Shown here: positions 20,501 to 38,462 of the stretch, one piece after another
How positions within the stretch are numbered: the stretch's first letter is position 1
Layout of the letters: the number at the start of each line of letters is the position of its first letter
From: Methanomassiliicoccus sp.
GTDB taxonomy: Archaea > Thermoplasmatota > Thermoplasmata > Methanomassiliicoccales > Methanomassiliicoccaceae
Reading direction: 5' to 3'
Assembly: GCA_018262895.1 (NCBI GenBank)
Contig: JADFDJ010000007.1
Span: 79,648 to 143,647, forward strand
Length of the DNA: 64,000 nucleotides
Notes under the pieces: generated by a model
Databases searched by the model: none
What the model saw: the letters and a program-made list of their open reading frames with translations, nothing else
Told to the model about the DNA's origin: nothing
Program-made: the position numbers and the translations under genes

Positions 20501-21115
20501 TCCCGTATGACCGTCGCCCACGTCCTGGAGATGATAGGTGGTAAGGTCGGTGCCATGGAGGCCCGGTCCATCGACGGTACGTCCTTCTCCGGGGAGAAGG
20601 AGCAGGCCATCAGGGAATCCCTGGGCCGTGCCGGTTTCAGAACCACTGGAAAGGAGGTGATGTACGACGGTCAGAACGGCAAGAAGATCGAGGCCGAGAT
20701 ATTTACCGGCGTTATCTACTACCAGAAACTGCACCACATGGTGTCGGGCAAGATGCACGTGCGTTCCCGCGGACCGGTGCAGATATTGACAAGACAGCCG
20801 ACGGAAGGCCGCTCAAGGCAGGGCGGTCTGCGTTTCGGTGAGATGGAAAGGGACTGCCTTATCGGGCACGGAGCGGCCATGGTCATCAAGGACCGGCTGC
20901 TGGACGAGTCCGATGGTACGTTCCTCTATGTGTGCGGCAACTCAAACTGCGGCCATATCGCAATGATGGACCGGAGGGGGGCGATACGCTGCCCGGTATG
21001 CGGCAATAACACCAACGTGCACCTCGTGCAGACGAGCTATGCGTTCAAGCTGCTGCTGGATGAGCTGCTGTCACTTGGCGTCGTCATGCGCCTTCAGCTG
21101 GAGGACCTAAGATGA
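17516..21115 (+). CDS. rpoB: DNA-directed RNA polymerase subunit B (unsplit)
   Basis: The second-largest polymerase subunit, here one 1199-residue chain and not the B''/B' pair found in many methanogens. The start is TTG 17516. Landmarks are the [14 protein letters not shown] fork region, [24 protein letters not shown], a zinc ribbon (CASC...CKHC, around residues 666-702), [33 protein letters not shown] (hybrid-binding Lys and His) and a C-terminal zinc ribbon CGNSNCGH...CPVCG. It overlaps rpoA1 by 4 bases (ATGA), so the two are translationally coupled. Confidence 0.98.
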
Positions 21116-23901
21116 TGCGAGGCGTTTCAAAGAGGATAGGTTCGATCAAGTTCTCGGCGTTGTCCCCTGATGAGATCAGGAAGATGTCCGCGACCAAGGT
21201 GATCACCGCGGACACATACGATGACGATGGCTTCCCCATCGACATGGGCCTGATGGACCCCCACCTGGGCGTCATCGAGCCCGGTCTGCGCTGCAAGACC
21301 TGCGGCAATAAGGTCGATGAGTGCCCTGGCCACTTCGGCCACATAGACCTGGCCATGCCTGTGATCCACGTCGGCCTGGTCAAGGAGATCAAGAAGCTGC
21401 TGCAGTCCACATGCAAGACCTGCGGCAAGCTGCTGATGACCAAGGAGGAGGCGCAGCGGAAGGCCCAGGAGTGGGAGCTCATGGACGACCTTGGCGGAGA
21501 TGCCATCGATTACCGTCTGCTCGCGAAGGGAACGGCCAAGGATGCTTCCAAGAACACCACTTGCCCACACTGCGGCCAGGAGCAGGGCAAGATCACCCTG
21601 GACAAGCCGACCACGTTCCGCGAGGACGGCCATAAGCTCACCCCCAAGGAAGTGAGGGAGCGTCTTGAGCGCATCCCCGATGAGGACCTGCCCCCCCTGG
21701 GCATAGACCCCAACTCCTGCCGTCCCGAGTGGATGGTGCTCACTGCTTTGGCGGTTCCGCCTGTGACGGTCCGCCCGTCCATCACCCTGGAGTCCGGCGA
21801 CCGCTCCGAGGACGATCTCACCCACAAGCTGGTGGACGTCCTCAGGATCAACCAGCGTCTGCGCGAGAACCGTGACGCCGGCGCCCCCCAGCTGATAGTG
21901 GAGGACCTGTGGGAACTGCTACAGTACCACGTCACTACCTATTTCGACAACCAGACCTCCGGCATTCCCCCGGCTAGGCACCGCTCCGGCCGGCCCCTTA
22001 AGACCCTGGTCCAGAGGCTCAAGGGAAAGGAGGGCAGGTTCCGTTCCAACCTGTCAGGTAAGCGTGTCAACTTCTCGGCGCGTACCGTCATCTCTCCCGA
22101 CCCCTCGTTGTCTATCAATGAGGTCGGGGTCCCATACGAGGCCGCTCGTGAACTGACCGTTCCGGTCCACGTCACCAAGGCCAATATCGATGTCCTCAAG
22201 GCCATGGTCAAGAGGGGCTCCAGCCCAGCCCTGGAGGACGGAAGGTACACCCCTGGCGTCAACTATGTGATCCGTTCTGACGGCCGCAGGATGAAGGTCA
22301 CCGACAGGAACGCCGAGATGATCGCCGACGGCCTGGAGATCGGATATGTGGTGGAGAGGCACCTTATGGACAAGGATGTCGTGCTGTTCAACAGGCAGCC
22401 TTCGCTGCACCGCATGTCCATGATGGCCCACACCGTCCGGGTCATGCCGTGGAAGACCTTCCGGTTCAACCTGTGCGTCTGCCCGCCCTACAACGCCGAC
22501 TTCGATGGCGACGAGATGAACCTGCACGTCCTTCAGAGTGATGAGGCGAGGGCGGAGGCAATGATACTCATGAGGGTCCAGGAGCACATCCTGTCTCCAA
22601 GGTTCGGAGGCCCCGTCATCGGCGCCATCCATGACCACATCACCGGAACGTTCCTTCTGACCCACCAGGACCCCAAGTTCGACAAGCAGGAGACGCTGAG
22701 CATACTTTCCAAGGTGAAGCACGATCACCTCCCCGAGCCCCTGGTGGTCGATGGGAAGGAGTACTGGACAGGTCACCAGCTCTTCTCCATGGTCCTTCCC
22801 GAGGGATTCCACACTACCTTCAAGGCATCCATTTGTCGCAACTGCGCGGTATGCAAGAAGGAGGAATGCGACCTCGACGCCTACGTGAAGATACGAGAGG
22901 GCAAGCTCATCACCGGCACCATCGATGAGAAGGCCATCGGCTCCTTCAAGGGTAAGATCCTCGACAAGATCACCCGCGATTACGGCGCGGACTCTGCCAG
23001 GGAGTTCCTGGACAACGTTACCAAGCTCGCCATCGGCGCCATCATGGTGCGCGGGTTCACCACCGGTATCGATGATGAGGACATCCCCGAGGAAGCGACC
23101 CACCAGATCAACGAAATGCTGAAGGACTCGGTGCGCAAGGTCTCGGAGTACGTCCAGGCCTACCGCGACGGTACCTTGGAGCAGAGGCCCGGCCGGTCCC
23201 TCGAGGAGACCCTAGAGGTCGAGGTCATGAAGACCCTGGGCAGCGCTAGAGATGAGGCCGGTCAGATCGCCGGCCGGCACCTGGGTATGGAGAACTCCGC
23301 GGTCATAATGGCCCGCTCCGGTGCCAGAGGTTCCATGCTCAACCTCTCGCAGATGGCAGGCTGCATCGGTCAGCAGGCCGTCCGTGGGGAACGCCTGTCC
23401 AGAGGATATTGGAACCGGACCCTACCGCACTTCAAGAAGGGGGACCTGGGCGCGCAGGCCAAAGGCTTCGTGCAGAACTCCTACAAGAGCGGTTTGACAC
23501 CGACCGAGTTCTTCTTCCACTCCATGGGTGGAAGGGAAGGTCTGGTCGATACCGCCGTCCGTACGTCCCGATCCGGTTACATGCAGCGCCGTCTTATCAA
23601 CGCGCTCGAGGACCTTAAGCTGAAGCAGGACGGCACGGTCAGGAACACCGCGGACATGATCGTCCAGCTCCAGTATGGAGAGGACGGGGTGGACCCCTGC
23701 CGCAGCGTGCAGGGAGACGCCGTGGACATCGACGACATCCTCGCGGAGGTCCTGGGCGATGATGCCGAGGCCCTCGCCCGGCTGGAGGAGAAGAAGGTGG
23801 CCGGCTACGCCACCATAGAGAAAGACCTCATGGAGACCATCGAGGAAGAGGAGGTCGAGGAGCCGGAGTACGATGCCGGAGGCGGCGGAGGTGAGGACTG
23901 A
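21112..23901 (+). CDS. rpoA1: DNA-directed RNA polymerase subunit A'
   Basis: N-terminal two thirds of the largest subunit, 929 residues. It carries the catalytic triad NADFDGD near residue 463 that holds the active-site Mg2+. The N-terminal zinc site is [17 protein letters not shown], with a second CKTC...CPHC pair further on. Other landmarks are [16 protein letters not shown] (switch/lid) and the bridge-helix region [22 protein letters not shown] at the C terminus. It ends in an acidic, Gly-rich tail. Its stop overlaps the rpoA2 ATG (TGATG). Confidence 0.98.
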
Positions 23902-25373
23902 TGGCCCGTAAGGACACGTTCAAGGCATTGTTGCGCAGGGGCATTGATGAGGCCACGGCCGACAAGCTGCTCCAAGGGTACAGCAGCATCACCGATATGG
24001 CCGCGGCCTCCGCCGCGGACATGGTGGCCCTGGGGCTCACAGAGGCCCAGGCCGCCGAGGTCAGCAAGCTCCTGGGCAAGGCCAAGAAGGAGGGCGGGAA
24101 GAAGGCAGAGAAGAAGGAGGCGGCACCGGAGCCTGTCAAGAAGACAGAGTTCCAGAAGGTCGTCAAGGCCCGCCCCCTGTTGCCGATGGAAGAGAGGCTC
24201 AATAAGTTGCTCTCCGACATCGGTAAGTTCCTCCCCCGCCGCGTGGTCGTCTCCTTAGCAGAGAGGCTGGATGGAGTGAACCTTTCCGAACCCAAGATCA
24301 AGGAGATCCTGCTCAAGGCCGCCGAGAAGTATGAGCTCCACAAGATGGACGCCAACGAATCCGCGGGGATCCTGGCGGCGCAGTCCATCGGGGAGCCCGG
24401 TACTCAGATGACCATGCGTACCTTCCACTACGCCGGTGTGGCGGAGATCAACGTTACACTGGGCCTGCCGCGCCTCATCGAGATCGTGGACGCCCGTCGG
24501 GTACCCTCCACCCCCATGATGACGGTGTACATCGAGCCGGAGCTGGCCGGTGACGTCGACGTCGTCCGTAAGGTGGCGTCAAGAATCGAGAAGACGACCC
24601 TTCTGGACATCGCGGACATCGAGACCGACATCGCCAACATGAAGGTGATAGTTCACCCTGACCGCTCCAAGCTGGAGCAGAAGGGCATCACCGAGGAGCA
24701 GATCGTGGAGAGGCTCAACAAGGACCGCCGCCTGCGCGGACAGGTGGCCCTGGTCCAGGACGAGGACGAAAAGGACCGCCGGTTGGTCGTCATATCCTCC
24801 GAGGAGGCGAGCTTCAAGAAGCTACAAGGCATCGTTCAGGCAACCCGGGATGCGGTCATCCAGGGCCTGGACGGTATCGAGAGGGCCATCCTGAGGAACC
24901 AGGGTGGCGAGTACGTCATCTACACCGCAGGCTCCAACCTCAGGGAGGTGCTGGCGGAGGAGCATGTGGACCGAAAGCGGACTACCACCAACTCCATCCA
25001 GGAGATATACGACGTACTGGGTGTGGAGGCTGCCCGGAACTCCATCATCCACGAGGCATCCAGGACCCTGGGCGAACAGGGTCTGACGGTGGACATCCGG
25101 CACATCATGCTCGTGGCCGATCTGATGACCAACGACGGCGACGTCAAGGCCATAGGTAGGCATGGGATCTCCGGCAGGAAATCAAGCGTGCTCGCGAGGG
25201 CAGCGTTCGAGATCACTGCCACCCACTTGCTCCACGCCGCTCTCACTGGAGAGACGGACGACCTGGACGGTGTAGCGGAGAACATTATCGTAGGGCAACC
25301 CGTGACCCTGGGGACAGGTGCTGTCAACCTGGTTTACGTGCCTAAGAAAAGGCCTAAGGAGGCAAGCGAATGA
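23901..25373 (+). CDS. rpoA2: RNA polymerase subunit A'' with extra N-terminal HhH-like domain
   Basis: C-terminal third of the largest subunit, containing the trigger loop and jaw. At 490 residues it is about 90 longer than the usual archaeal A''. The excess is N-terminal: residues about 5-65 ([38 protein letters not shown]) form a helix-hairpin-helix-like unit, joined by a Lys/Glu/Pro-rich linker (65-95) to the normal start [15 protein letters not shown]. The standard part has [28 protein letters not shown] (trigger loop), [12 protein letters not shown] and the late [22 protein letters not shown]. It overlaps rpl30e by 4 bases. Confidence 0.97.
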
Positions 25374-25651
25374 TAGATTTGGGAAGAGCGATTAAGGCCG
25401 CTGCGACCACCGGCAAGGTGGTCTACGGCGTGCAGCAGGCAGAGAAGGCGGTCAACAGCGGAGAGGCCAAGATGGTCATTCTTTCTGCGAACTGCCCGAG
25501 TGAGTTCCTCAGATCTGGAAACCACAACAATGTCAAGGTTGTCAAGTTTGAGGGTACCAACATGGAGCTAGGGGCTCTCTGTGGGAAACCGTTCTCGGTG
25601 TCCGCTCTAGCGGTGATCGACAAGGGTACCTCCAACATCCTTTCGTTGTGA
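25370..25651 (+). CDS. rpl30e: Large ribosomal subunit protein eL30
   Basis: RNA-binding L7Ae/L30e-fold protein of 93 residues. It matches archaeal L30e: [37 protein letters not shown], a [27 protein letters not shown] core. It starts inside the rpoA2 stop (ATGA) and is followed 4 bases later by nusA, the conserved archaeal order. Confidence 0.96.
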
Positions 25652-25655
25652 TCCT

Positions 25656-26084
25656 ATGCCGGCTGAGATAACTTTCACCGAGGACACCCTGAGGTACATC
25701 AACCTCTTCGAGGCGGTTACCAAGACCAGGGTCAAGGATTGCATGGAGACCGAGGAGAAGCTGGTGTTCGTGGTCGAGCCTGGCCAGGCCAACAGGGCCG
25801 TGGGCAAGGCCGGCGAGAACGTCATCCGCCTCAAGAACCAGACCGGGAAGAACATTCAGGTCATTGAGTACTCGGACGAGCCGGAGAAGTTCATCCGGAA
25901 CGTGTTCTACAACTACAACGTGCAGAACGTCGTCATCGAGAACCGGGGCAATGTGGTGCATGCAACCGTGACCGTCGATCCCAAGGTCAAGGGGAGGGCG
26001 ATCGGCAAGAACGGCCGCAACCTCAAGATCGCACGGGACATAGTCAACCGTCACCACAACGTCCAGAGCATCAGCGTGGCTTGA
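25656..26084 (+). CDS. nusA: NusA-like KH-domain transcription factor
   Basis: Archaeal NusA is reduced to two KH domains and binds RNA near the polymerase. The 142 residues contain two GxxG loops, one in NRAVGKAGENVIRLK (about residue 50) and one in GRAIGKNGRNLKIARDIV (about 115). Last gene of the operon here: the usual rpsL-rpsG-fusA genes do not follow. Its end overlaps the convergent radical SAM gene by 14 bases. Confidence 0.95.
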   Translation: MPAEITFTEDTLRYINLFEAVTKTRVKDCMETEEKLVFVVEPGQANRAVGKAGENVIRLKNQTGKNIQVIEYSDEPEKFIRNVFYNYNVQNVVIENRGNVVHATVTVDPKVKGRAIGKNGRNLKIARDIVNRHHNVQSISVA

Positions 26085-27138
26085 GCGGTTCCCGCTCCAC
26101 TTCCAACCGATCGGCGGTGGGGTACTCCTCCACCAGGAAGGACTCGTAGGGTAGCATGGGGGCTATCTCCTTCAGCACCCACGGGGCCACCTCAACCCTT
26201 TCCTTTTCCATGTCCTTTCTGAAGAGCCCGTCGGGCACGGTATACTTATCCCGCAGCACGGCAATGATCTCATCCATTGGTCCTTCGATGACGCCCTTGA
26301 GGAGCATGCCCTCCTCTGTGATCATGTCCGAAGGCAGGGCCACCCTCAGCGCCCGCCTCTTTATTCGCTTCCTGAGCTGAACGGAGTCCTTGAAGCTGGA
26401 TGAGCAGTAGTGAACGGGGATGGCATGCTCTCCTTCGACCACGGCCAGCGCCGTCGTTTCGCTTCCCCGGACCGCGCTGGACACGTCGTCCTTGACCTCC
26501 ATGCCCCTATCCTTCAGCTCCTCCCAGTTGCCCTCGGAGAACTCCAGCTCGTTGAGGTTTACGAAGTCCAGGCCCGCTTCCTGGGCGAACCGCACGAGTC
26601 GCCTCAGCTCCTCCTCCTGCCCAGGGATGGCCGGGACCTCCATCCCTATCTTCATGCGGGAACCCTTCTTGAACTCAGCGATCCCGGACCCCTCAAGCTG
26701 ACCCCAGGCCTCCATAGGGGGGTGCAGCCGCAGCTCGTCCAACCCCGCTTCCTCCAGAGCGCGGAACGCGGAGGTATCCAAGGACGAGGTGTAAAGGTGA
26801 ACGTGATGCCTCTTTCCGAAGGTCTTCTTTAGGAGCTTGATGAAGTGCACCGTGCGGTCCAGGCATGCCACGGGGTCCCCGCCGGTGACACCGGTGCCCT
26901 GGGCCCCTATCATCTTGGCCTCCTTGATCACGTCCTCGTCGCTGCTCGCCTTCAGCTCATTGGCATAGATGACGTTCTTCCCCCGTTTCTCCAGGGATAG
27001 GGGGCAGTAGTAGCAGCCGGTGGAGCACCTTCCGGACACGAGAAGCACCATCTTGGTCCCCTGGCGGCAAAGCACACAACCACGCGGCAACCGTCCGGTG
27101 TACGCAGACCCCGCCTCCATCGGTTCGACCCTCATCAT
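26071..27138 (-). CDS. Radical SAM protein (COG2108-like, PFL-activase related)
   Basis: A 355-residue radical SAM enzyme with the cluster motif CSTGCYYC (residues 38-45), preceded by a CVLC pair near residue 21 that may hold another metal. Further features are VTGGDPVACLDRTV, HLYTSSLD and VNLNELEFSEGNW. The C-terminal third has no catalytic motif I recognise. Archaeal members of this orthologous group lack a known substrate. ATG 27138 is immediately followed by a second ATG. It faces nusA tail to tail with a 14-base overlap. Confidence 0.85.
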   Translation of the reverse strand: MMRVEPMEAGSAYTGRLPRGCVLCRQGTKMVLLVSGRCSTGCYYCPLSLEKRGKNVIYANELKASSDEDVIKEAKMIGAQGTGVTGGDPVACLDRTVHFIKLLKKTFGKRHHVHLYTSSLDTSAFRALEEAGLDELRLHPPMEAWGQLEGSGIAEFKKGSRMKIGMEVPAIPGQEEELRRLVRFAQEAGLDFVNLNELEFSEGNWEELKDRGMEVKDDVSSAVRGSETTALAVVEGEHAIPVHYCSSSFKDSVQLRKRIKRRALRVALPSDMITEEGMLLKGVIEGPMDEIIAVLRDKYTVPDGLFRKDMEKERVEVAPWVLKEIAPMLPYESFLVEEYPTADRLEVEREPLKPR

Positions 27139-27338
27139 TGTTCCTGAGGCCTGGTCCTCTAATAAATGTTGCTTCTCCGCGTATTGGGTCTAGTTGCTCC
27201 CGCCGGTACGCCAGGGAGCTGGAACCCCTGTTACACCCACGGGACGCCGTTATATTGTCCCGCACTACTGAGCCATGGACCAATGGAGGTCTACCATCCC
27301 TAAAAATATGTGCACTGTTATGAGGTGACGGTGGTCAT

Positions 27339-27992
27339 TTGAAGAAGAACACGCGGATGGTCCTGGCCCTGGACGAGACGGACGAGAGCAGGGCGCTCAA
27401 GATCGCCGATGAGGTGGCCGACCTTGTGGACGCCATCAAGATCAACTGGCCTTTGGTGCTCTCCACATCGCCGGAGATGATCACCCGCCTATCTCACCTC
27501 TGCCCGGTCATATGCGACTTCAAGATCGCGGACATACCCAACACTGACCGTCTGATCGTGGAGCAGGTGCGGAGGAGGGGTGCCTCCGGGGTGATCGTTC
27601 ATGCATTCACTGGTTCTGATTCCCTGTCCGCGGCCGTGAAGGCGGCCGAGGACCTGGACGTGTTCGTGGTAACCGAGATGTCCCATCCCGGGGGACGGGA
27701 GTTCACCGCCCCCCTGGCCGAGCGCTTTGCCGGCATGGCCGTGGAGGCGGGGGCGGCGGGCGTGATCGCACCCGCCACTCGACCGGAGAGCATTGCCAGG
27801 GTCCGTAACATCGTGGGCGACCTCCTCATACTCACCCCGGGAGTGGGAGCGCAGGGAGGGAGCGCTTCCGACGCCATCTCCATGGGCGCGGACCATGTGA
27901 TCGTGGGGCGTTCCATCTATGGCTCCCCGATGCCCCGGGAGGCCGCAGAAAAGCTCGCCAAGGAGATCCGACAGGCGGCACAGGCCCTGTAG
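27339..27992 (+). CDS. pyrF: Orotidine 5'-phosphate decarboxylase
   Basis: Last step of UMP synthesis. TIM barrel of 217 residues: MVLALDETDE (strand 1), DAIKINWPLVL, CDFKIADIPNTDRLIVEQV (the D-K-x-x-D catalytic array), VTEMSHPGG, APATRPESI, TPGVGAQGGSASDAISMGADHVIVGRSIY (phosphate-binding loop). The start TTG 27339 is supported by GAGGTGA 10 bases upstream; ATG 27357 is an alternative. Monocistronic, with a TATA-like TAAAAATATG near 27301. Confidence 0.95.
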   Translation: MKKNTRMVLALDETDESRALKIADEVADLVDAIKINWPLVLSTSPEMITRLSHLCPVICDFKIADIPNTDRLIVEQVRRRGASGVIVHAFTGSDSLSAAVKAAEDLDVFVVTEMSHPGGREFTAPLAERFAGMAVEAGAAGVIAPATRPESIARVRNIVGDLLILTPGVGAQGGSASDAISMGADHVIVGRSIYGSPMPREAAEKLAKEIRQAAQAL

Positions 27993-28147
27993 CGTTCGCA
28001 GGTATGGTCTCCCCCCTTCGCGTCATCCGACCCTTCTCACGCCATCCAGCAGCCTTCGGATGCAATAATTGGGGAATGTGCCCGGAACAGGCACTTCCAA
28101 ACCCCCATGCACAAGGTTGTGCCAGAAAAAAGCCCTTTAAAGCCAGA

Positions 28148-28158
28148 TTTTTTATACC
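28148..28158 (+). promoter_or_regulatory. TATA box of the aglB unit
   Basis: TTTTTTATACC lies about 44-54 bases before the aglB ATG, predicting a start near 28183 and a leader of about 20 nt that includes TAGGAGA as ribosome-binding site. The 150 bases between pyrF and this point hold no gene. Confidence 0.55.
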
Positions 28159-28201
28159 GGACCAGTAATCTGAGGACGATTCTGCCTAGGAGACGTTAAC
28201 G

Positions 28202-31200
28202 ATGGATGCAAATGATGGGAGGCCAGAGGGTCGTCCCCAAAAGGTACAGAAGCCAAAGATAGGTGGTCTCCAAGCCCTGTTCAAGGAGGATTCCTGGCTG
28301 GGTCGGAACTGGGGTACCATCCTCATCCTGGTAGCTATCATTTTCATCGCACTTTTCGTGCGTAGCTACTTCGGGTACTCCACAGCGGTGGACAATGGCT
28401 TCTTGGTCGCAGGCGGCTCGGACTCGTACTATCACCAGCGCGTTATCGGGTACGTCGAGGACACAGGCAACCATCTGGTCAACGACCCCATGCTCAACTA
28501 TCCCATGGGCGTCAGGAACATGAGGCCACCTCTATACGATTGGTCCGTAGCTGTCACCAGCATGTTCATGTCCGGCGTCACAGGGATGTCGATCACGGAC
28601 AGCACAGGTTATACCCTCCTGTTCTCTACGGCCTTCTGGGGGGCACTTACCTGCATTCCAGTGTACATGCTCACGCGGGCTGCCTTCGGTAACCGCGCAG
28701 GGCTCCTAGCATCTCTTCTGTTCGCGATAATGCCGGGCAACATCACCCGCAGCGTGTTCGCGGACGCCGACCACGATGCCATGATCCTGTTCTTCGTGGT
28801 CTTCGGTCTGTACTTCCTGTTCCGTTCCCTGGTTAGTATAAACGGGACAAGATGGGTCGAGAACTGGAAGAACATCACGTCCATCAGAACGGGCGTCAAA
28901 TCTTACATGGAAACCAATCGGCGCTCCCTCATCTATGCGATGCTGGGAGGCGTCTGTTTCGCCGCAGTGGCGATGATATGGACCGGGTACACGTACATGC
29001 TCATCATCGTCCTGGTATACTTCCTGGTCCAGGTCCTGATAAACCGCTTCCGGAACATCGACTCCATGGGTGAGTTCTTCGTCATCGGGGCCATGCTCCT
29101 AACGGGCTTCGTACTCATGGCCCCTCTGTACTGGCAGCTCAGCTACTGGAGCCAGTGGTACGATGTGCCTTTCTATCTGTTCCTCGCCACGATGTTCGTG
29201 GGCGGGTTGTTCGTAGCGTCCCGGGATTACCCCTGGACACTGGTCATTCCAGTTGTCATCGGCATAATCCTGCTGGCACTCGTGGCGGTGTTCATCCTCG
29301 CCCCCAACCTGTTCGAGGCGATCGTCACTGGCCAGGGATATCTGGTCAAGAGCAAGCTATACTCCACAATCTCGGAAGCAACGGCCCCGACATTCTCCAA
29401 CCTGGCGATGTCATTTGGTGTGGTCACCTTCTGGCTCGCCATCATCGGCCTCGTCTGGGCGGCGGTGAAGATACCCAAGGACCCCTCGCCCTACCTCGTG
29501 TTCATCGTAGTGTGGATGGCGGTCAGCATGTACATGGCAGCCTCGGCCAGCAGGTTCCTGTTCAACGCCTCCCCCGCCTTCGCCATGGCCGCGGGATGGA
29601 TACTGGCCCTGCTCATAAAGAGGCTCAAGTTCGAGGACATGCCCAGGACCTTCAGCGGCTTCTGGTCCAATCCTCTGCGGACTTTGAGGAAGAACGTGAA
29701 GATAAGCCATGTCGTAGGAGTACTGTTCCTTGCCTTCCTGGTGATCCTCCCCAACGCCTGGGGTGCGATAGACGCGGGTATCCCGTCGGAGACCAAGAGG
29801 GACTACGACAAGCAGATCTACTATGCCCTGCCGGACATACTGCATCCTGCTGATTACGATACGGTCAACGGGACGTTCTGGTATCTGGGAGCGTTCTCGT
29901 ATTCGCTGCCGTTACCGACCGCGTACTATCCGGCCGCTTGGTCATGGCTCAAGACGCAGGACAGCAACCTATCGGAAGCGGACAGACCCGCCTTCCTGTC
30001 CTGGTGGGACTATGGCTTCGAGGCCATACAGGCGGGCGGTCATCCGACCGTTGCGGACAACTTCCAGAGCGGCTACGAGTATGCCGCTTCGTTCCTGATG
30101 TCGGAGAACGAGAGCGATGCCGTCTCCCTGCTCACCATCAGGCTGCTGGAGAAGACAGGCTTCACCGACAGCATCAACAGCGCGTTATCCAACAATGGTG
30201 TCGATGCCGCTGCTCTCAAGGACATCATGCAGAACCCGTCCAACTATGTCCAGACGGTGCTCGATAACCCTGACGTCTACGGCAAGTTCACGAGCGACAT
30301 AAGCGTGGCCAACGCCAAGTACGCTGCGGCCCGTATGGAGCTCGAGAAGGTCGACCTTGAGAAACTGGTCGACACATACCATGATGTCAGGGAGGTCAGC
30401 GGTTATGACATCGGCTACGTGGCCGTGGACAGCAGGCTGTTCCCCTTCAGTGCGACGGGGAGCAACATCTTCTACGCACCCGCCAAGCTGAACGATCGTA
30501 CCATAGACTCGTACACCGGGTCGCCGACCGACTACTACACCATAAAGGCCATACTAAGCGACTACAGCGCTGTGGACCTACAGAACGTGACATCTAGAGA
30601 TACCGTCCTGGGCTACCAGATCTACTATACGGACCTGTTCTACCAGACCATGATCTACAGGACGTTCATGGGCCTGAGCCCCTCGGACATCGGCGAGACC
30701 AGCCAGGGAATACCTGGATACTCGGGTACGCTTAGCAGCTACGACGCCATGCCGGCCTACAACCTGACACACTTCAAGCAGGTCTACCGCACGGCGTACT
30801 ATCTGCCTGACAACTCCACCACCTGGGAGGCGGTCTCCTATGAGGAGGCCAAGTACCTGCAGTCCCAGATAGACGCTGGGGCCATAAACGGTACCGTGGA
30901 CAAGAGCGCCTCGGTGCTGCAATCAGGTGTGGTGTTCATGCAGTACTATGACGGTGCGATACTGAACGGTACTGCCATCGCCAGTGATGGAACGCCCTAC
31001 TCTGGTGTCCACGTTACTGTGATCGACGAGAACGGCATACCGCATCAGACGGTCACCACATCATCTGACGGTTCCTACCAGGTCTATCTGCCGTTCGGCA
31101 ACGTCAGCGTGGTATATTCTGTGGGAGACCTCGACGGCAGCACCCTGATCGGCTCCGAGCTCGATCGGGTTGATTACCAGGTCTCATATGCCCAGGCCAT

Positions 31201-34200
31201 GAGGCTGGAGAGCTTCACCGCTAATGGGGACATCACCCTCGCGGGCTCGAGGCTGTCCGGTTACGTGTTCTGGGACATGGACGGTAATGGGCGTTTCAGC
31301 ACCGGAGATGAGGCCATCGCCGGCGCTTCCGTGGTGCTGAAGAACAATAAAACCGGGTTCACATCCAGCGCGACCTCCGATAGCAACGGATACTACTCCC
31401 TGCTGGGTGCGGAGAGCGACAACAACGTGCTCTACGCCACCTACGAGGATCACACCTTCGGTTACGAGTCCGTGGACCTGGCATCTACCGGATCACTGCG
31501 CCGTAACATCGCCATAGAGCCGGCGGTGGTCAGTGGGACCATCTCCTTCCTGGAGGGCGGGACCGCCAGCGGGGTCGTGATAAGCCTCACGGACACTGCC
31601 AGCGGTGAAGTGACCAACACCACCAGCGGGTCGGGAGGGGCGTTCACCTTTAATCGCCTGCTGCCGGGAGACTATACTGTGGACACTGCCGATACCAATA
31701 TCAGCGCAGGCTCCCAGACCGTTACCCTCAGTGCAGGAAGCACTGTCACCGTGAACCTGAAGATGTACAGGGCGACACAGATCACCGGCCAGGTCACCAT
31801 CGATACGGTGCCCCAGGCAAACGTGGCGGTCGGTTTCATATCCGATGCCGGTGAGCTGTTCACAACCACCGATTCCTCAGGCAACTATGTGATCACCCTG
31901 CCCCAGGGTACGTACACCGCATATGCTTTGACCCTGAGGGAAGGCGTCAACATGGTGGCCATGGAGCCCCTCGTCGCCAACACCAACAGCGCCACTCTCG
32001 ACCTGCCATTGTCCACCGGTTCGGTGGTGACAGGTGTTGTCAAGAACGGCGGCTCCGCGGTCAGCGGCGCTTCGGTCGTCTACACCTCGGTGGCCGATGC
32101 TACGTTCCTGAGGACCTCCACCAACTCCACCGGGGACTACCGTCTGGTCCTGCCTACGGGCGATTACTTCGTGTACGCGGCAGGCTCCGGAAAGGCCTAC
32201 TGGGGCAACCTGGCCATAAGCGGCACCAGCACCCAGGAGATCGCCTTACAGGACTCCACCACTATTGGTGGAACCACCTGGTACGACACCAACCTCAACA
32301 ATGAGATGGACACCAGCGAGGGCCTCGGGAACGTGGTTCTCAAGGTACAGTCCAAGACCACATCATCTCAGGTGGTGTACTTCACATCCGATGGATCGGG
32401 CGATTACAACATCACCCTGCCCACCGGTAACTCATACGTGCTCACCGCCAACCTGGACGGTTACACCGAGTATACCAACACCTACGACCCCCTGAGCTCG
32501 GCCGTTGGCAACAACATTGAGATGGTGGCCATCAACCGCACGGTCACCGGAACGGTCACATCCGGCGGGTCCCCCGTCAACGGTATAACGGTCACCTTGA
32601 CCGCCAACGGCGGAGGTGCTGTGACCACCACCGCGACCACAAGCGGCTCCGGACAGTTCGCTGTCAGCGCGGCACCTGGCACCTACTCAATCATCGTCGA
32701 TCAGAACGTCTCTGGGGACAACTCCAGCATGTACAAGGCCTCCAAGGCCCTGACGGTGGAGGTGGGCAAGGACCCCGATGCTGTCAACGTCGCGCTCGAC
32801 ACGGTCGCCAGGGTCACGGTCAACGTGACCATGCCCTCGGGAGCATCTGGATCTGTGCGGTTCATCGGACCTGACGAATCCACCGTTGCCGCGTCCTCTA
32901 CCATCACCGAGTACCTGACGCCAGGAACATACACAGTGTACACCGAGCTCTCGGACGATGATATATACTACACCGACCTCAGATCGGCGACAATAGCTGC
33001 GGGCACTAACATCGATATCGCTCCCCAGCTCTCCTACGCCCTCACCGGGCAGATGCAGTACGATGGCGAGGACCTTCTGATCCCCGCAAACATCACCATC
33101 TCCTCGGGGGCGGCCGCGGTGACCATGAACGCCAACAGCCAAGGGTCGTTCACCACCTATCTGGTGAACGGCACCTACACCGTGGATGCGGAGTACCACA
33201 CCACGGGCACGATCGATGAGAAGACCCGCTACCTTGTCTACACAGCGAGCCAAGGCGTCACGGTGAACGGTGATCAGACCGTGGACATCGCTCTCGCCCG
33301 CGGCCTTGACAACGCCACCATCAGCGGGACCATAAGCGGGGCCTCCTCAGGAGTGAGCTGGAACTTCGTTGCGCTGTCCAGCACGGCCATCGACGGCTCA
33401 GTCAGCTCCGGAGCGGGCTCCTATTCCGTGAGCCTTGCACCAGGCACCTACAGCGCCTACGGTGTCGATGGTTCTGGCAACGTGTACCTGGGTGTATTAA
33501 CCGTCAACTCCGAGGGGACCAACACCGCCAACGTGACGTTCGAGAGCGGCATACTGGTCAGCGGAACGGTCCGTTACAACGGCGCGGGTGCCGGTGGCGC
33601 CAAGGTGGTGTTCTCGGACGCCGCCCAGGTGACCGCCAACGCCAACGGGGCCGGAGGCTACTCCGCCTACCTGCCACGGGGCACCTATAATGTTACGGCC
33701 ACATGGACCAACGAGGAAGTGGCAGGGGTCACCGTGACCTACTCCCGCTCCTTCGATCTGGATGTAAACTCCAGTGTCAGCCGGGACATCGATCTGGTCC
33801 GCCAGATAAAGGGCGCTGTGGAGCTTGTCTGGGACTCCGGGAGCAAGAAGACAGTGAACGCAGGGGAGTCCGCTACCTATGATGTCACCGTGTACAACCG
33901 CGGCAACATTGACGACACCTACGTCCTCGGCAGCGACTCCAGCTGGAACGTGACCTTCTCCGAGGATACCGTGGAGCTGCCCTGGGGCGCCAACAGCTTC
34001 AGGACGGTCCAGGTGACCATAGGGACCCCGGATAACGCCAAGGTCAGCCACTCCGCCATAAAGCTGAACGCCACCTCCAAGAACCACACCAGCGCCTCTG
34101 GCACGGTCAATGTGGACGTCAACATCGTGCCGGCGTACGCGGTCAGCATCAACACGTCCACGGCGCAGACCATAAAGGGCGACACCATAACCTGTCCGTT

Positions 34201-34642
34201 CATAATCAAGAACGACGGCAACATCGTGGACACCTACAACTTCACGGTGTCCAACAAAGCAGAGCTGGCGGTGAAGGGATGGACAGCCACAATTTCCGGC
34301 ACAAGCAACGACTACAAGGTGGTGTCGGTGGCCGCGGGAAGCACTCAGACGGTCAACGTAGTGCTGACCAGGAACCAGGAGACGCCCGATGTGAACTCCA
34401 CTGTAACGGTCGCGGTCAGTTCTGAGCAGAACGCCACGGCCACAGGAGAGAGGCAGATGCAGAGGGCTGACATCAGCCTGCCGGACGACGGCCTCACGGT
34501 CAGCGGGGACGGCATCAGCATGAGAGCTCCGGAGGTACCAGGCATGACCTATGTCCTCGTGATAGCGCTGGTGCTGCTGCTGGTGATGTTCGTGGTCCTA
34601 AAGGTCAACAAGGGGGTGTTCGGACGCCGAAGAAAGAGATGA
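28202..34642 (+). CDS. aglB: Giant AglB oligosaccharyltransferase with repeat-rich C-terminal extension
   Basis: STT3/AglB transfers lipid-linked glycan to Asn in N-X-S/T sequons on the outer face of the membrane. Residues about 35-520 hold the multi-spanning core with GGSDSYYHQR and FADADHDAM (DxD-like metal/lipid-phosphate sites) and SRFLFNASPAFAMA. The sequon-binding SWWDYG is at about 600-605. Known archaeal AglB proteins are about 800-1000 residues; this one has 2146. The additional part has about 11 tandem prealbumin-like beta-sandwiches (about 919-1866), two NEW3/COG1470-like domains (about 1868-2095), then a C-terminal membrane helix and basic RRRKR end. Codon use and frame are continuous, so it is not a chimera by frameshift. 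Its stop overlaps the next gene (ATGA). Confidence 0.93.
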   Translation: MDANDGRPEGRPQKVQKPKIGGLQALFKEDSWLGRNWGTILILVAIIFIALFVRSYFGYSTAVDNGFLVAGGSDSYYHQRVIGYVEDTGNHLVNDPMLNYPMGVRNMRPPLYDWSVAVTSMFMSGVTGMSITDSTGYTLLFSTAFWGALTCIPVYMLTRAAFGNRAGLLASLLFAIMPGNITRSVFADADHDAMILFFVVFGLYFLFRSLVSINGTRWVENWKNITSIRTGVKSYMETNRRSLIYAMLGGVCFAAVAMIWTGYTYMLIIVLVYFLVQVLINRFRNIDSMGEFFVIGAMLLTGFVLMAPLYWQLSYWSQWYDVPFYLFLATMFVGGLFVASRDYPWTLVIPVVIGIILLALVAVFILAPNLFEAIVTGQGYLVKSKLYSTISEATAPTFSNLAMSFGVVTFWLAIIGLVWAAVKIPKDPSPYLVFIVVWMAVSMYMAASASRFLFNASPAFAMAAGWILALLIKRLKFEDMPRTFSGFWSNPLRTLRKNVKISHVVGVLFLAFLVILPNAWGAIDAGIPSETKRDYDKQIYYALPDILHPADYDTVNGTFWYLGAFSYSLPLPTAYYPAAWSWLKTQDSNLSEADRPAFLSWWDYGFEAIQAGGHPTVADNFQSGYEYAASFLMSENESDAVSLLTIRLLEKTGFTDSINSALSNNGVDAAALKDIMQNPSNYVQTVLDNPDVYGKFTSDISVANAKYAAARMELEKVDLEKLVDTYHDVREVSGYDIGYVAVDSRLFPFSATGSNIFYAPAKLNDRTIDSYTGSPTDYYTIKAILSDYSAVDLQNVTSRDTVLGYQIYYTDLFYQTMIYRTFMGLSPSDIGETSQGIPGYSGTLSSYDAMPAYNLTHFKQVYRTAYYLPDNSTTWEAVSYEEAKYLQSQIDAGAINGTVDKSASVLQSGVVFMQYYDGAILNGTAIASDGTPYSGVHVTVIDENGIPHQTVTTSSDGSYQVYLPFGNVSVVYSVGDLDGSTLIGSELDRVDYQVSYAQAMRLESFTANGDITLAGSRLSGYVFWDMDGNGRFSTGDEAIAGASVVLKNNKTGFTSSATSDSNGYYSLLGAESDNNVLYATYEDHTFGYESVDLASTGSLRRNIAIEPAVVSGTISFLEGGTASGVVISLTDTASGEVTNTTSGSGGAFTFNRLLPGDYTVDTADTNISAGSQTVTLSAGSTVTVNLKMYRATQITGQVTIDTVPQANVAVGFISDAGELFTTTDSSGNYVITLPQGTYTAYALTLREGVNMVAMEPLVANTNSATLDLPLSTGSVVTGVVKNGGSAVSGASVVYTSVADATFLRTSTNSTGDYRLVLPTGDYFVYAAGSGKAYWGNLAISGTSTQEIALQDSTTIGGTTWYDTNLNNEMDTSEGLGNVVLKVQSKTTSSQVVYFTSDGSGDYNITLPTGNSYVLTANLDGYTEYTNTYDPLSSAVGNNIEMVAINRTVTGTVTSGGSPVNGITVTLTANGGGAVTTTATTSGSGQFAVSAAPGTYSIIVDQNVSGDNSSMYKASKALTVEVGKDPDAVNVALDTVARVTVNVTMPSGASGSVRFIGPDESTVAASSTITEYLTPGTYTVYTELSDDDIYYTDLRSATIAAGTNIDIAPQLSYALTGQMQYDGEDLLIPANITISSGAAAVTMNANSQGSFTTYLVNGTYTVDAEYHTTGTIDEKTRYLVYTASQGVTVNGDQTVDIALARGLDNATISGTISGASSGVSWNFVALSSTAIDGSVSSGAGSYSVSLAPGTYSAYGVDGSGNVYLGVLTVNSEGTNTANVTFESGILVSGTVRYNGAGAGGAKVVFSDAAQVTANANGAGGYSAYLPRGTYNVTATWTNEEVAGVTVTYSRSFDLDVNSSVSRDIDLVRQIKGAVELVWDSGSKKTVNAGESATYDVTVYNRGNIDDTYVLGSDSSWNVTFSEDTVELPWGANSFRTVQVTIGTPDNAKVSHSAIKLNATSKNHTSASGTVNVDVNIVPAYAVSINTSTAQTIKGDTITCPFIIKNDGNIVDTYNFTVSNKAELAVKGWTATISGTSNDYKVVSVAAGSTQTVNVVLTRNQETPDVNSTVTVAVSSEQNATATGERQMQRADISLPDDGLTVSGDGISMRAPEVPGMTYVLVIALVLLLVMFVVLKVNKGVFGRRRKR
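30958..33806 (+). repeat. About 11 carboxypeptidase-regulatory-like repeats inside aglB
   Basis: Protein-level repeats of roughly 75-95 residues. Each has a G-x-V/I start (e.g. VTGTVTSGGSPVNGITVTL, VSGTVRYNGAGAGGAKVVF), a central G-Y/F strand (SSGNYVITLPQGTYTAYA), and an I-x-L ending. Two units (near 31240 and 32270) carry SdrD-like WDMDGNG or WYDTNLNNEMD loops that could bind calcium. Sequences are divergent, so DNA-level repeats are weak. Confidence 0.75.
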
Positions 34643-35370
34643 TCATGATCGCAGCGGCGATATCGCTGCTGCTGATATCTTGCCTCGCCTCGCCGGCGAT
34701 GGCGGATGAGGCGAGTGACTATAGTGTAAGCTTTTCCGGCGCCGAGTACCTTATCCCGTCCGAGAAGGGCGTGGTTGTGGTGAACATCGGGACCGACCGC
34801 CCCTCCGGCGACTACAGCTGGAACGCGTCGATAAGCTCGGGAACGATAACCCCCAACAAAGGTTCAGGGAGCGCGGACAGCTTCAACATCACTGTCACCG
34901 CTCCTACCACCACCGGGGACCCGGTCCTCAGCCTGACCCTGACCAACGGGACGGTGAACCACACCTCCACATATACCCTGCACGTCATCGAGCCGACGGT
35001 CATCTCCGCCACGGTGAAGAACAGCGGCTACCTGGCGATGCAGGATGTGAAGGTGCGGTTCCTGGCGGACGGGGCGGTCCTGAACGAGACCACCTTCGAT
35101 ATTGCCGCCAATGCTACCAGCACGGTGTCCTACAACTGGACAGCGCATGGACTGAGCGCGGGAGAGCACACCGTGCAGGTGGTGCTGGACCCGGACAACG
35201 AGTACGTGAGGTTCCTGGACGGCAGCTCCACGTACACGTCCAAGTTCTTCGTCGGCGAGTCCATCTGGGGCACCATGAACGTGATATTGGCCATCCTCGT
35301 GGCCCTCCTGATCTTCATCGTGTTCTTGACATACATGAACAGGGGGAAGAAGGGGAAGAAGAAGAGCTGA
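34639..35370 (+). CDS. Secreted, membrane-anchored CARDB/NEW3-like protein coupled to AglB
   Basis: A 243-residue protein with an N-terminal signal peptide (residues 1-22, ending SPAMADEA), an extracytoplasmic region of about 180 residues and a C-terminal membrane helix (about 210-232) with a Lys-rich cytoplasmic tail (KKGKKKS). The middle resembles a CARDB-type domain (VKNSGYLAMQDVKVRFLADG, SAGEHTVQVVLDPDNEY). It has at least six N-X-S/T sequons. The start overlaps the AglB stop, so translation is probably coupled. The role is unknown; a partner or substrate of AglB is an inference. Confidence 0.8.
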   Translation: MIMIAAAISLLLISCLASPAMADEASDYSVSFSGAEYLIPSEKGVVVVNIGTDRPSGDYSWNASISSGTITPNKGSGSADSFNITVTAPTTTGDPVLSLTLTNGTVNHTSTYTLHVIEPTVISATVKNSGYLAMQDVKVRFLADGAVLNETTFDIAANATSTVSYNWTAHGLSAGEHTVQVVLDPDNEYVRFLDGSSTYTSKFFVGESIWGTMNVILAILVALLIFIVFLTYMNRGKKGKKKS

Positions 35371-35463
35371 AACCACTTACCTCCCTTTTACTTTCACAGG
35401 GACATTCTACGTTGTCGGGAATAGCTCCAAATAGTCCCTCCTCGATTGTTCGCAACGATCGCT

Positions 35464-35787
35464 ATGGCTGAACATGTTGAGGATATCGGTCAGGATGGTT
35501 TCGATTCGTACGTGAAGGCCCACCCCAAGCTGGTGGTGGACTGCTGGGCGGCCTGGTGCGGACCCTGCCGCATGATGGGCCCCATAATCGACAAGCTGGC
35601 CGCGGACCATGCGGGCAAGGTGGCGTTCGCCAAGCTCAACGTGGACGAGAACCAGAAGCTTGCTCAGTCGCACCGTATAATGGCTATCCCTACGTTGCTG
35701 TTCTTCAAGGACGGAAAGGTCGTGGACCAGATTGTGGGGCTAGTTCCCAAGGATGAGATCGAAGAGGTCATCCGCAGGAAGCTGTGA
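35464..35787 (+). CDS. trxA: Thioredoxin
   Basis: Cytosolic disulfide reductase of 107 residues with active site WCGPC (residues 28-32), VDCWAAW before it and the cis-Pro loop [13 protein letters not shown] after it. ATG 35464 is preferred to the track's 35446 because [13 protein letters not shown] aligns with the usual start. It faces the translin-family gene, 2 bases apart. Confidence 0.95.
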
Positions 35788-35789
35788 TC

Positions 35790-36413
35790 TCACAGCTTGC
35801 GGCAAAGCTCGTCGATCTTCTTCTGCAGTCGGGCCGAGTTCACGGCCACGGCCACTTCCCCCCTCGTCTTTTCAAGAAGGGACCTGGCCACATCCTGTTT
35901 CCTCCTGATCGGTATCAGCGCGTCAGGGAAATCGAAGCGCATGATGACCAGGAACATCTCCTCCATCAAGTTCAGGAACTCCGTCGCCTTCTCCACGTCG
36001 CCCTCCCTTAGCCTTTCCAGGGCGAAGCGCCGCAGCTCCCCGATGGCATCGGCCATGCCCAGCAGGTAGGCGTTTCCGGTGATGCCCATGTCATCGGGGT
36101 CCGGAAGGTCCTCGTCCTTGACCATGGCCATGAGTATGGCGGCCTCCGCCAGCTCCTGCAGAGCGCTCTCCACCAGGCCCGACTCCCATATCTCGGGGTA
36201 GTCCTCCAGCAGTGACCGAAGGCGATGGGTCTCGTCAAGCGCCTCGTGCATGAGGGGCATGGCATCGTCCTTCTTGTGGATCATGTGCACGATGCTCCCC
36301 GACAGGCGGTTGATGGCCCGCGTGGACTTGATGGCGACCTCACGCACCTGGTCCTTCTCCTCCAGTCTGGATTCGATGCGTTCAGCGATCTCTTCCAGGT
36401 TCTTCATGCCCAT
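35790..36413 (-). CDS. Translin-family protein (COG2178-like)
   Basis: A 207-residue, all-helical protein resembling archaeal translin homologues, which form ring-shaped oligomers that bind RNA or single-stranded DNA; some have nuclease activity. Features are REVAIKSTRAINRLSGSIVHMIH at the N terminus, a central ALQELAEAAILMAMV, ITGNAYLLGMADAIGELRRFALERLREGD and FPDALIPIRRKQDVARSLLEKTRGEV near the end. Assignment is from overall pattern. It is separated from purD by 21 bases in the same direction, so it may be downstream in one transcript. Confidence 0.78.
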   Translation of the reverse strand: MGMKNLEEIAERIESRLEEKDQVREVAIKSTRAINRLSGSIVHMIHKKDDAMPLMHEALDETHRLRSLLEDYPEIWESGLVESALQELAEAAILMAMVKDEDLPDPDDMGITGNAYLLGMADAIGELRRFALERLREGDVEKATEFLNLMEEMFLVIMRFDFPDALIPIRRKQDVARSLLEKTRGEVAVAVNSARLQKKIDELCRKL

Positions 36414-36434
36414 ATGAACACCGCCCGTTTACAT

Positions 36435-37763
36435 CTAACTTCTTATCGTTTCCATATGTTCAACGCGGCGCCGTATGACCTCGGGACGGCCAATGTCATG
36501 GCGGACGAAGATGGCCTCACCTTTCACGTAGGAGAGGGCCTTCTCGCACGCCTTCTCCGCTGCCTCGATGCTGTCATCTATGCCCACCACTCCCACGGCC
36601 CGGGAGGTGGTGGTCAGCACCCTGCCGTTCTCCTCGCTCACCATGGCGTAGTAGGCTCTGGCCCCCATGGCGGCGATATTAACCTCATCGACATGCACCT
36701 CCTTGCCCGCAGCGGGGCTGGTGCCATATCCCTGGGGGACGACGTACTTGCACACCGTGGCCTTCCGGGCGAAGGAAACATCCTTATCGCTCAGGCTCCC
36801 CGCGGCGATGGCGGCACAGATATCGGTGAACGATGATGACACGATGGACAGTACGTTCATGGCCTCGGGGTCCCCGAAGCGGGCGTTGAACTCGATAACC
36901 CGTGGCCCGCTCCGAGTGTTCATGAACTGCCCGTACAGGATGCCACGGTAGGGACAGCCCTCCCTTTCCATGGCCGCGACCGTTGCCCGCATTATTTCCA
37001 GGGCCGCCTCCTTCTCCGAAGGGGTGACGAACGGCAGCAGGTGGTCCTCCTGAGAATACGAGCCCATCCCTCCCGTGTTCGGGCCCACATCTCCCTCGTA
37101 GGCACGCTTATGGTCCTGTACCAAGGGCATAGGTATGACCCTATGGCCATCGCAGAAGGCCTGCAGGGTGAACTCCTCTCCTACCAGCCGCTCCTCGAGG
37201 ACCACGCCTCCGCCGCCGATGTTGTGGGCGAAGATGTCCTCTAGGTAGCGCACGGCATCCTCCTTGGTGAGAAGGTGCTCCCCCATCACCTTGACGCCCT
37301 TGCCCCCCGTGAGCCCCACCGGCTTAACCACCAGGTCCTCGTCGTGGTCCCGGACATATGCCTTCGCGGCCTCGAGATCGTCGAAGGCCTCGAACTCTAT
37401 GTTGCCAGGAACATCGTGCTTACGCATCAGGCCCCGGGTGAAGGACTTGGACACCTCAAGCCTAGCCGCTGCCCTGCTGGGGCCGACGCAGCTTATGCCC
37501 TTGGCCTCCAGGGCATCCACAAGACCCACCTCCAGGGGGGATTCCGGTCCTATGACCGCCAGTTCCACGGCGTGATCCGCAGCGAACTCCACCACCTTGT
37601 CGACGTCGGTCTCCTTCACGAGCTTGAACTCCTGGGACAGGCCGGCGATACCGGGATTGTGGTTCCTCATTGCGGAATAGATCGTTGAACCGCTGGCGGA
37701 CAGAGCGGCGGCGATGGCGTGCTCGCGTCCGCCCCCTCCTACGACTAGAACCTTCATGGTCAT
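36435..37763 (-). CDS. purD: Phosphoribosylamine-glycine ligase
   Basis: Second step of purine synthesis: ATP-dependent ligation of phosphoribosylamine and glycine. The 442-residue ATP-grasp enzyme starts MKVLVVGGGGREHA (second ATG at 37757 fits best). It has IGPESPLEVGLVDAL, DLVVKPVGLTGGKGV (ATP lid), YEGDVGPNTGGMGSYS and RVIEFNARFGDPE (metal-binding). No other purine genes are nearby. Confidence 0.96.
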   Translation of the reverse strand: MTMKVLVVGGGGREHAIAAALSASGSTIYSAMRNHNPGIAGLSQEFKLVKETDVDKVVEFAADHAVELAVIGPESPLEVGLVDALEAKGISCVGPSRAAARLEVSKSFTRGLMRKHDVPGNIEFEAFDDLEAAKAYVRDHDEDLVVKPVGLTGGKGVKVMGEHLLTKEDAVRYLEDIFAHNIGGGGVVLEERLVGEEFTLQAFCDGHRVIPMPLVQDHKRAYEGDVGPNTGGMGSYSQEDHLLPFVTPSEKEAALEIMRATVAAMEREGCPYRGILYGQFMNTRSGPRVIEFNARFGDPEAMNVLSIVSSSFTDICAAIAAGSLSDKDVSFARKATVCKYVVPQGYGTSPAAGKEVHVDEVNIAAMGARAYYAMVSEENGRVLTTTSRAVGVVGIDDSIEAAEKACEKALSYVKGEAIFVRHDIGRPEVIRRRVEHMETIRS

Positions 37764-37805
37764 GCCTCATCAGGATAATGGGGGCCCGTAATAATAATTG
37801 GCGGT

Positions 37806-38462
37806 TCAGGCCTGGATGTTGAGCGCCTGGAACAGCTCGTCCAGCCCCTCTCCCGTCTTGGCGCAGGTGCGGTAGAGCCTGGCACCCTTCTTGACGCGGT
37901 CATAGTCGCGGTCGAGCAGGGAGACATCGATGTCCATGTACGGCAGCAGGTCGACCTTGTTAAGGACGGCGATGTCCGATTCCAGGAAGATCAACGGCTG
38001 CTTACGCACCATGTCGTCACCCTCAGTGACGGAGATGACAACCATGCGCTGGTCCGTCCCCAAAGGGAAGTCCGCGGGGCAGACCAGGTTGCCCACGTTC
38101 TCCACGAAAAGGAAGTCCAGGCTTTCCAGGTCCAGCTTGTCCAGCGCGTGGTCAACGAGGTGCGCATCCAGGTGGCATTCCTTTCCGGTGTTGACGTTTA
38201 CCGCCTTTACGCCCGCCTTCTGGAACCTATCGAAGTCATCCTGTCCGGTCACGTCACCGGCGAGGACCGCCACCCTGATGCCCTTCTTCATCATCCGTAC
38301 GGCCATCTGCTGGATGAGTAGGGTCTTGCCCGACCCGATGGAGCCCATGACGTCCACGGAGCGGATGCCGTGTTCCCTCAGCCGGTGGTGGTTCTCATGG
38401 CCCAGCTTCCTGTTCTCAGCGAGAACGTCCGCCTCTATGGAAATGTCCGATACCTTGTGCAC
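37806..38462 (-). CDS. hypB: Hydrogenase nickel-insertion GTPase HypB
   Basis: SIMIBI-class GTPase that delivers nickel during [NiFe]-hydrogenase maturation. The 218 residues include the Walker A GSIGSGKT (residues 41-48), VAVLAGDV, CHLDAHLVDHAL (metal-binding Cys-His at the dimer interface), LFVENVGNLVCPADFPLG and LNKVDLLPY (G4). The His-rich N-terminal tail of some bacterial HypB proteins is absent. HypA and hydrogenase genes are not in the window, so it stands alone; presence implies a NiFe enzyme elsewhere in the genome. Confidence 0.94.
   Translation of the reverse strand: MHKVSDISIEADVLAENRKLGHENHHRLREHGIRSVDVMGSIGSGKTLLIQQMAVRMMKKGIRVAVLAGDVTGQDDFDRFQKAGVKAVNVNTGKECHLDAHLVDHALDKLDLESLDFLFVENVGNLVCPADFPLGTDQRMVVISVTEGDDMVRKQPLIFLESDIAVLNKVDLLPYMDIDVSLLDRDYDRVKKGARLYRTCAKTGEGLDELFQALNIQA

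Follow-up and report, generated by a model that had tools for sequence, protein, structure and literature searches.

A long form of the archaeal oligosaccharyltransferase AglB in Thermoplasmatota with a conserved domain chain, a second membrane anchor and a coupled partner gene

Among the described archaeal oligosaccharyltransferases (OSTs), AglB-L of Archaeoglobus fulgidus (structures 7e9s, 3waj and 5gmy), a protein of 868 residues (PMC8342417), consists of a membrane region and a catalytic domain with the WWDYG, DXD and TIXE motifs. In AglB of Sulfolobus acidocaldarius (Saci1274), the soluble domain is placed between membrane helices 14 and 15, the latter being a C-terminal anchor (PMC4287180). 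Here, we analyzed a stretch of 64,000 nucleotides from Methanomassiliicoccus sp. (assembly GCA_018262895.1, contig JADFDJ010000007.1, positions 79,648 to 143,647; hereafter the window), in which the aglB gene encodes an OST of 2146 residues. The window protein shares the membrane region, the catalytic domain and all three motifs with AglB-L, which in contrast has no C-terminal anchor, no known partner and no counterpart of the domains numbered 2–13 below. With Saci1274 it shares the second anchor, but no long domain chain has been reported for that protein, which belongs to another lineage. The statement of a first-pass annotation of the window that known AglB proteins end soon after the first globular domain applies to Archaeoglobus, but not to the phylum studied here, and is also qualified by the second anchor of the S. 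acidocaldarius protein. The reading that we favor, tentatively and at somewhat less than even confidence, is that of a normal archaeal OST core extended by twelve further domains and a second anchor, acting as a NOMO-like extracytoplasmic scaffold together with a dedicated membrane partner.

The long-form aglB gene (28202..34642, + strand) runs for 2146 codons without interruption, with stops abundant on the reverse strand. The N-terminal membrane region (residues 32–526; 28295..29779, +) was delimited by the helices of the structural model; hydropathy gave a similar region (about 31–528) and a single C-terminal helix at 2109–2143. Its external loops carry D74, D190-A-D192 (DXD) and TISE 389–392 (TIXE), near invariant in our core alignment set of 53 full-length orthologues from Thermoplasmatota. 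The extracytoplasmic catalytic domain (residues 536–905; 29807..30916, +) contains WWDYG at 601–605 (30002–30016), invariant in the same set and located where the first-pass annotation had placed it (near residue 600). Pfam assigned STT3 to residues 43–480, and the NCBIfam model TIGR04154 (the archaeosortase A system-associated archaeal STT3; 831 positions) aligned to residues 40–966 at 228.7 bits, under its 450-bit cut-off. An AlphaFold2 model of residues 1–1200 (53 orthologues in the alignment; pLDDT 87.0, pTM 0.77) retrieved AglB structures as the top Foldseek matches (TM-score on target 0.63–0.67), with A. fulgidus AglB 7e9s as the best one (E 6e-26), and also matched eukaryotic STT3. By its motifs and predicted fold, the window protein is an STT3/AglB oligosaccharyltransferase. 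A second, weak STT3 match in the genome (L002, G000:C29:21525-21725; 23 bits, below the cut-off) lies in a 410-residue frame, which is unlikely to be another AglB.

The region after the core was assigned nine CarboxypepD_reg stretches, SdrD_B and NOMO_5th (over its cut-off) by Pfam, and the NCBIfam family choice_anch_T (NF041740) matched the NEW3-like region at 1968–2083 only, with 52 bits against a 70-bit cut-off. In the AlphaFold2 model of residues 947–2146 (53 orthologues in the alignment; pLDDT 87.8, pTM 0.43), beta-sandwich domains extend throughout and end in a C-terminal helix. Guided by this model, we divide the region into 13 beta-sandwich domains, 11 transthyretin/prealbumin-like and two NEW3/Ig-like (Ig, immunoglobulin), in agreement with the roughly 11 prealbumin-like and two NEW3-like domains originally suggested. 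Domain 1 (residues 906–1001; 30917..31204, +) is transthyretin-like, matches the catalytic core in conservation and is part of the ordinary AglB family. Because TIGR04154 already aligns to residue 966, the true addition consists of the twelve domains 2–13 and the anchor. Domains 2–11 (residues 1012–1866; 31235..33799, +), ten transthyretin/CarboxypepD_reg-like units in fixed order, were defined by Pfam, the model and positional domain profiles. Domains 12–13 (residues 1867–2086; 33800..34459, +) are NEW3/Ig-like, adjoin the membrane and keep the same position in 37/37 species. The C-terminal membrane helix (2114–2136), followed by the basic tail ...VFGRRRKR (34541..34639, +), was recognized in the model, by hydropathy and from orthologue C-termini, since the full-length orthologues also end in a hydrophobic stretch and a basic end; the second membrane anchor proposed earlier is thereby borne out. 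A fold search with the chain model returned generic multi-Ig proteins only. As another candidate role of the C-terminus, a sorting signal cut by archaeosortase was considered and rejected: the genome has no exosortase (PF09721) match, and so lacks the archaeosortase implied by the TIGR04154 definition, and no conserved motif precedes the helix. The helix is thus best taken as a plain anchor.

The architecture is shared widely. In 53/53 orthologues, the chain after the core spans 1153–1255 residues (mean 1213 +/- 24) and aligns almost without gaps, with identity to the window protein dropping to 21%. When single sequences were compared pairwise by position, the signal was weak (the diagonal was best for 5–10 of 13 domains), and profiles were used instead. 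Domain models trained on the order Methanomassiliicoccales and tested on 37 species of other lineages gave the best score to the domain at the same position for 88.6% of 481 domains (7.7% expected by chance). Since same-numbered domains match across lineages and the length is constant, the chain was built before these lineages split, with number and order held since. Judged from these sequences, fixed length and order argue for a fixed scaffold, unlike stalks with a drifting repeat number. Complete AglB frames in the order (147 genomes) have about 1830–2555 residues, shorter ones seeming mostly cut by contig ends, and most AglB proteins of the class have 2030–2440 residues. The long form is phylum-scale and ancient rather than a local oddity. 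The 53 full-length orthologues, together with whole-genome searches, rule out both a mis-assembly joining aglB to a surface-protein gene and a two-gene split in relatives, the outcomes named at the outset as fatal to the idea. In only two cases (L144 and L151) was aglB found in two overlapping or adjacent frames, with the missing part in the other frame or just downstream, and these are probably frameshifts or sequencing errors.

Beyond the class, long forms of the phylum measure 2300–2740 residues, reaching about 3200 in two families. In the short forms (1023–1427 residues), the core is followed by about two to five domains and the C-terminal helix is absent, whereas the anchor is present in complete long forms. 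No separate gene for the remainder of the chain was found in whole-genome searches of the short-form genomes. In an unrooted core tree of 40 long and 18 short sequences, one change separates the two forms, and a single gain of the long form is the simpler reading because AglBs of other archaea are short. In the genus-level lineage L143, most middle domains have been lost, while domain 1, the last NEW3-like domain, the anchor and the partner gene are kept; its members G266, G274 and G296 have AglBs of similar length. The retention of the ends when the middle was lost indicates that the ends matter most, and points to the second anchor and the membrane-proximal domains as the functional heart of the chain. 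Three further loci (L153, L154 and L193) encode AglBs of about 3170–3195 residues, with about 350 extra residues ahead of the membrane core and an even longer chain, followed by a different protein of about 410 residues with one membrane helix in place of the partner.

The partner gene (34639..35370, +) starts within the aglB stop (ATGA) and encodes 243 residues with a signal peptide, a CARDB Ig-like domain, a C-terminal membrane helix and a basic tail. Its homologue stands directly downstream of aglB, often with the 4-nt overlap, in 62 of the 71 long-form loci that could be judged, and in one more (L132) that the filter had missed; the remaining eight, without an adjoining partner, all come from other classes, so that every judgeable long-form locus of the class has it. 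After short-form aglB it was found in none of 17 loci. Among the searched genomes of the class, 133/135 have a partner, and one of the two that do not (G304) also has no detectable AglB. The single-contig genomes G208 and G203, presumably those of Thermoplasma acidophilum and T. volcanium, encode AglBs of 2081 and 2076 residues, respectively, each with a partner. Outside the class, the matches listed include near-full-length partners in three genomes only (G371, G379 and G386), the others being partial CARDB matches. Pfam recognized CARDB in 47 of 49 partner proteins and otherwise little but generic Ig families; none of the 49 matched the Pfam families of known OST/TRAP accessory subunits. The surrounding order (window 21112-38462) of rpoA1, rpoA2, a radical SAM gene, pyrF, aglB, the partner, a translin-like gene and purD is conserved over many relatives, and hypB joins it in nearer ones. 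A promoter and terminator scan gave nothing above chance.

Altogether, these results raised a hypothesis on how the long form may work. In the ancestor of the long-form Thermoplasmatota, the core would have gained domains 2–13 and the second anchor, most likely only once. Since the chain is fixed to the membrane at either end, an arch or loop is preferred to a free stalk; of the two shapes offered in the first-pass annotation, the arch is retained and the stalk becomes less likely. Such an arch over the outer membrane face could have a contour of up to about 45 nm, at the 3.5 nm per domain modelled for NOMO, which itself follows a looping path (PMC12262048). As a scaffold it would hold the OST beside the partner protein, perhaps also beside the Sec translocon, and retain substrate chains close to the active site as they emerge, acting in the manner of eukaryotic NOMO and accessory OST subunits and not as a stalk into the S-layer. 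The anatomy and conservation follow from the sequences, and it is from these that we infer the arch, the scaffold role and the cooperation with the partner. Taken one step further, AglB-long and the coupled CARDB membrane protein may be the two subunits of the OST in the long-form Thermoplasmatota, with a NOMO-like arch built into the enzyme to organise substrate delivery, a proposal in which we place somewhat less confidence than in the scaffold itself.

Several points weigh against this proposal. The chain model has a pTM of only 0.43, so that the proposed path of the chain in space is conjectural, as is its contact with the active site, the partner or the translocon. The loss of most middle domains in L143 argues against a strict length ruler. 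In other classes, long-form lineages such as that with the form of about 3200 residues have no partner adjoining aglB, and archaeal AglBs have been described as single-subunit enzymes (PMC8342417).

The strongest competing explanation, although we consider it unlikely, is that the chain is mainly a component or spacer of the cell-surface glycoprotein layer, anchored by the enzyme to which it is fused. Arrays of beta-sandwich domains are a typical feature of surface proteins, domains like these are present in further large proteins encoded by the same genome, and the chain is rich in sequons across the 53 orthologues (18.1 per chain against 10.0 in shuffled sequences and 11.0 for the reversed motif). 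The lumenal core is likewise enriched. The STT3 protein PTO0786 of Picrophilus torridus, moreover, was detected in the secreted fraction by liquid chromatography–mass spectrometry, which provides evidence for AglB production in a member of the Thermoplasmatales; the source does not give the length of the protein (PMC8345856). A single-copy enzyme would, however, be a poor bulk wall component, the number and order of the domains are far more constant than one would expect for a spacer, the chain returns to the membrane, and a dedicated coupled partner is present. The genome also encodes two large surface proteins, namely a cysteine protease of the papain-like type that carries Ig and CarboxypepD_reg domains (L200:1213-5325; G000:C18) and a beta-helix protein of 2175 residues (L199:618-7145; G000:C11).

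The same sequons had suggested that the enzyme glycosylates itself, the chain presenting acceptor sites to its own active site, for example, as a coat or a regulatory load. The abundance of sequons was upheld across orthologues, and one column, N1704, is a sequon in 44/53 of them, but we regard the idea as improbable. Taken alone, the window protein shows no significant excess (24 sequons against 18.2 in shuffles, with 76 of 1000 shuffles as high), most other positions are not conserved, and the N-G-T-Y turn in which N1704 sits may have a structural role. The richness of both chain and core fits a glycosylated surface protein, for which self-modification is not required.

Slightly less probable still is that the chain crosses the pseudoperiplasm and tethers the OST to the S-layer. 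The contour estimated above would suffice for it, but this part of the first-pass annotation does not agree with the retention of the long form, as in G208 and G203, in Thermoplasmatales, which have no paracrystalline S-layer (PMC12448462, PMC5155288). Least of all do we expect the chain to share its descent with eukaryotic NOMO, as an archaeal orthologue fused to the OST. When PDB sequences were searched with the chain profile, NOMO2 came out best (3e-35), NOMO_5th passes its cut-off, and both proteins combine 12–13 Ig/transthyretin-like domains with a single C-terminal helix and a short tail, but the profile matches are not colinear, the NOMO-type Pfam hits are ordered 2nd, 9th, 5th, NOMO is absent among the best 50 fold matches listed, and AglB as a single sequence scores lower against NOMO2 (10.8 bits) than a papain-like protease of the same genome with one such domain (20.3 bits). 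Another large surface protein gave no match to NOMO2.

The phylum-wide distribution, the fixed domain order and the coupled partner gene were absent from the first-pass annotation. In a search of open-access papers, which included Thermoplasmata AglB and marine group II OST, no paper retrieved described the long form or its partner. Reports of accessory OST subunits have been limited to eukaryotes and Asgard archaea (PMC10307638). If our proposal is true, the partner would be, to our knowledge, the first candidate for such a subunit in Archaea outside Asgard, and the scaffold of OST and translocon would have been invented independently. A large archaeal lineage would then have built its own exoplasmic OST scaffold, with a nearly universal, translationally coupled partner and an unvarying chain of 13 domains, over a whole class that includes wall-less acidophiles and methanogens, and the long form with its partner would provide a testable model of what NOMO and the ribophorins do for glycosylation.

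Among known systems, the short AglB forms of the phylum share with the long form the core, domain 1 and a small number of additional domains, but have neither the anchor nor the partner gene. The partner resembles the accessory OST/TRAP subunits of eukaryotes and Asgard archaea (PMC10307638) in being small and membrane-anchored, with an Ig-like extracytoplasmic domain beside the OST, and differs from them in its families, CARDB and generic Ig without a common Pfam match. NOMO1/2, of the BOS complex in the multipass translocon, is a separate protein without an OST fusion, and its domain order has no correspondence to that of the chain. It nevertheless has 12 Ig-like domains, a single C-terminal helix and a short cytosolic tail and is found where proteins are exported (PMC12262048, PMC11169918); docking of its last two domains onto partners in the translocon has been proposed (PMC11169918). 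Although descent is not supported, NOMO offers the closest working analogy for the chain of the long-form AglB.

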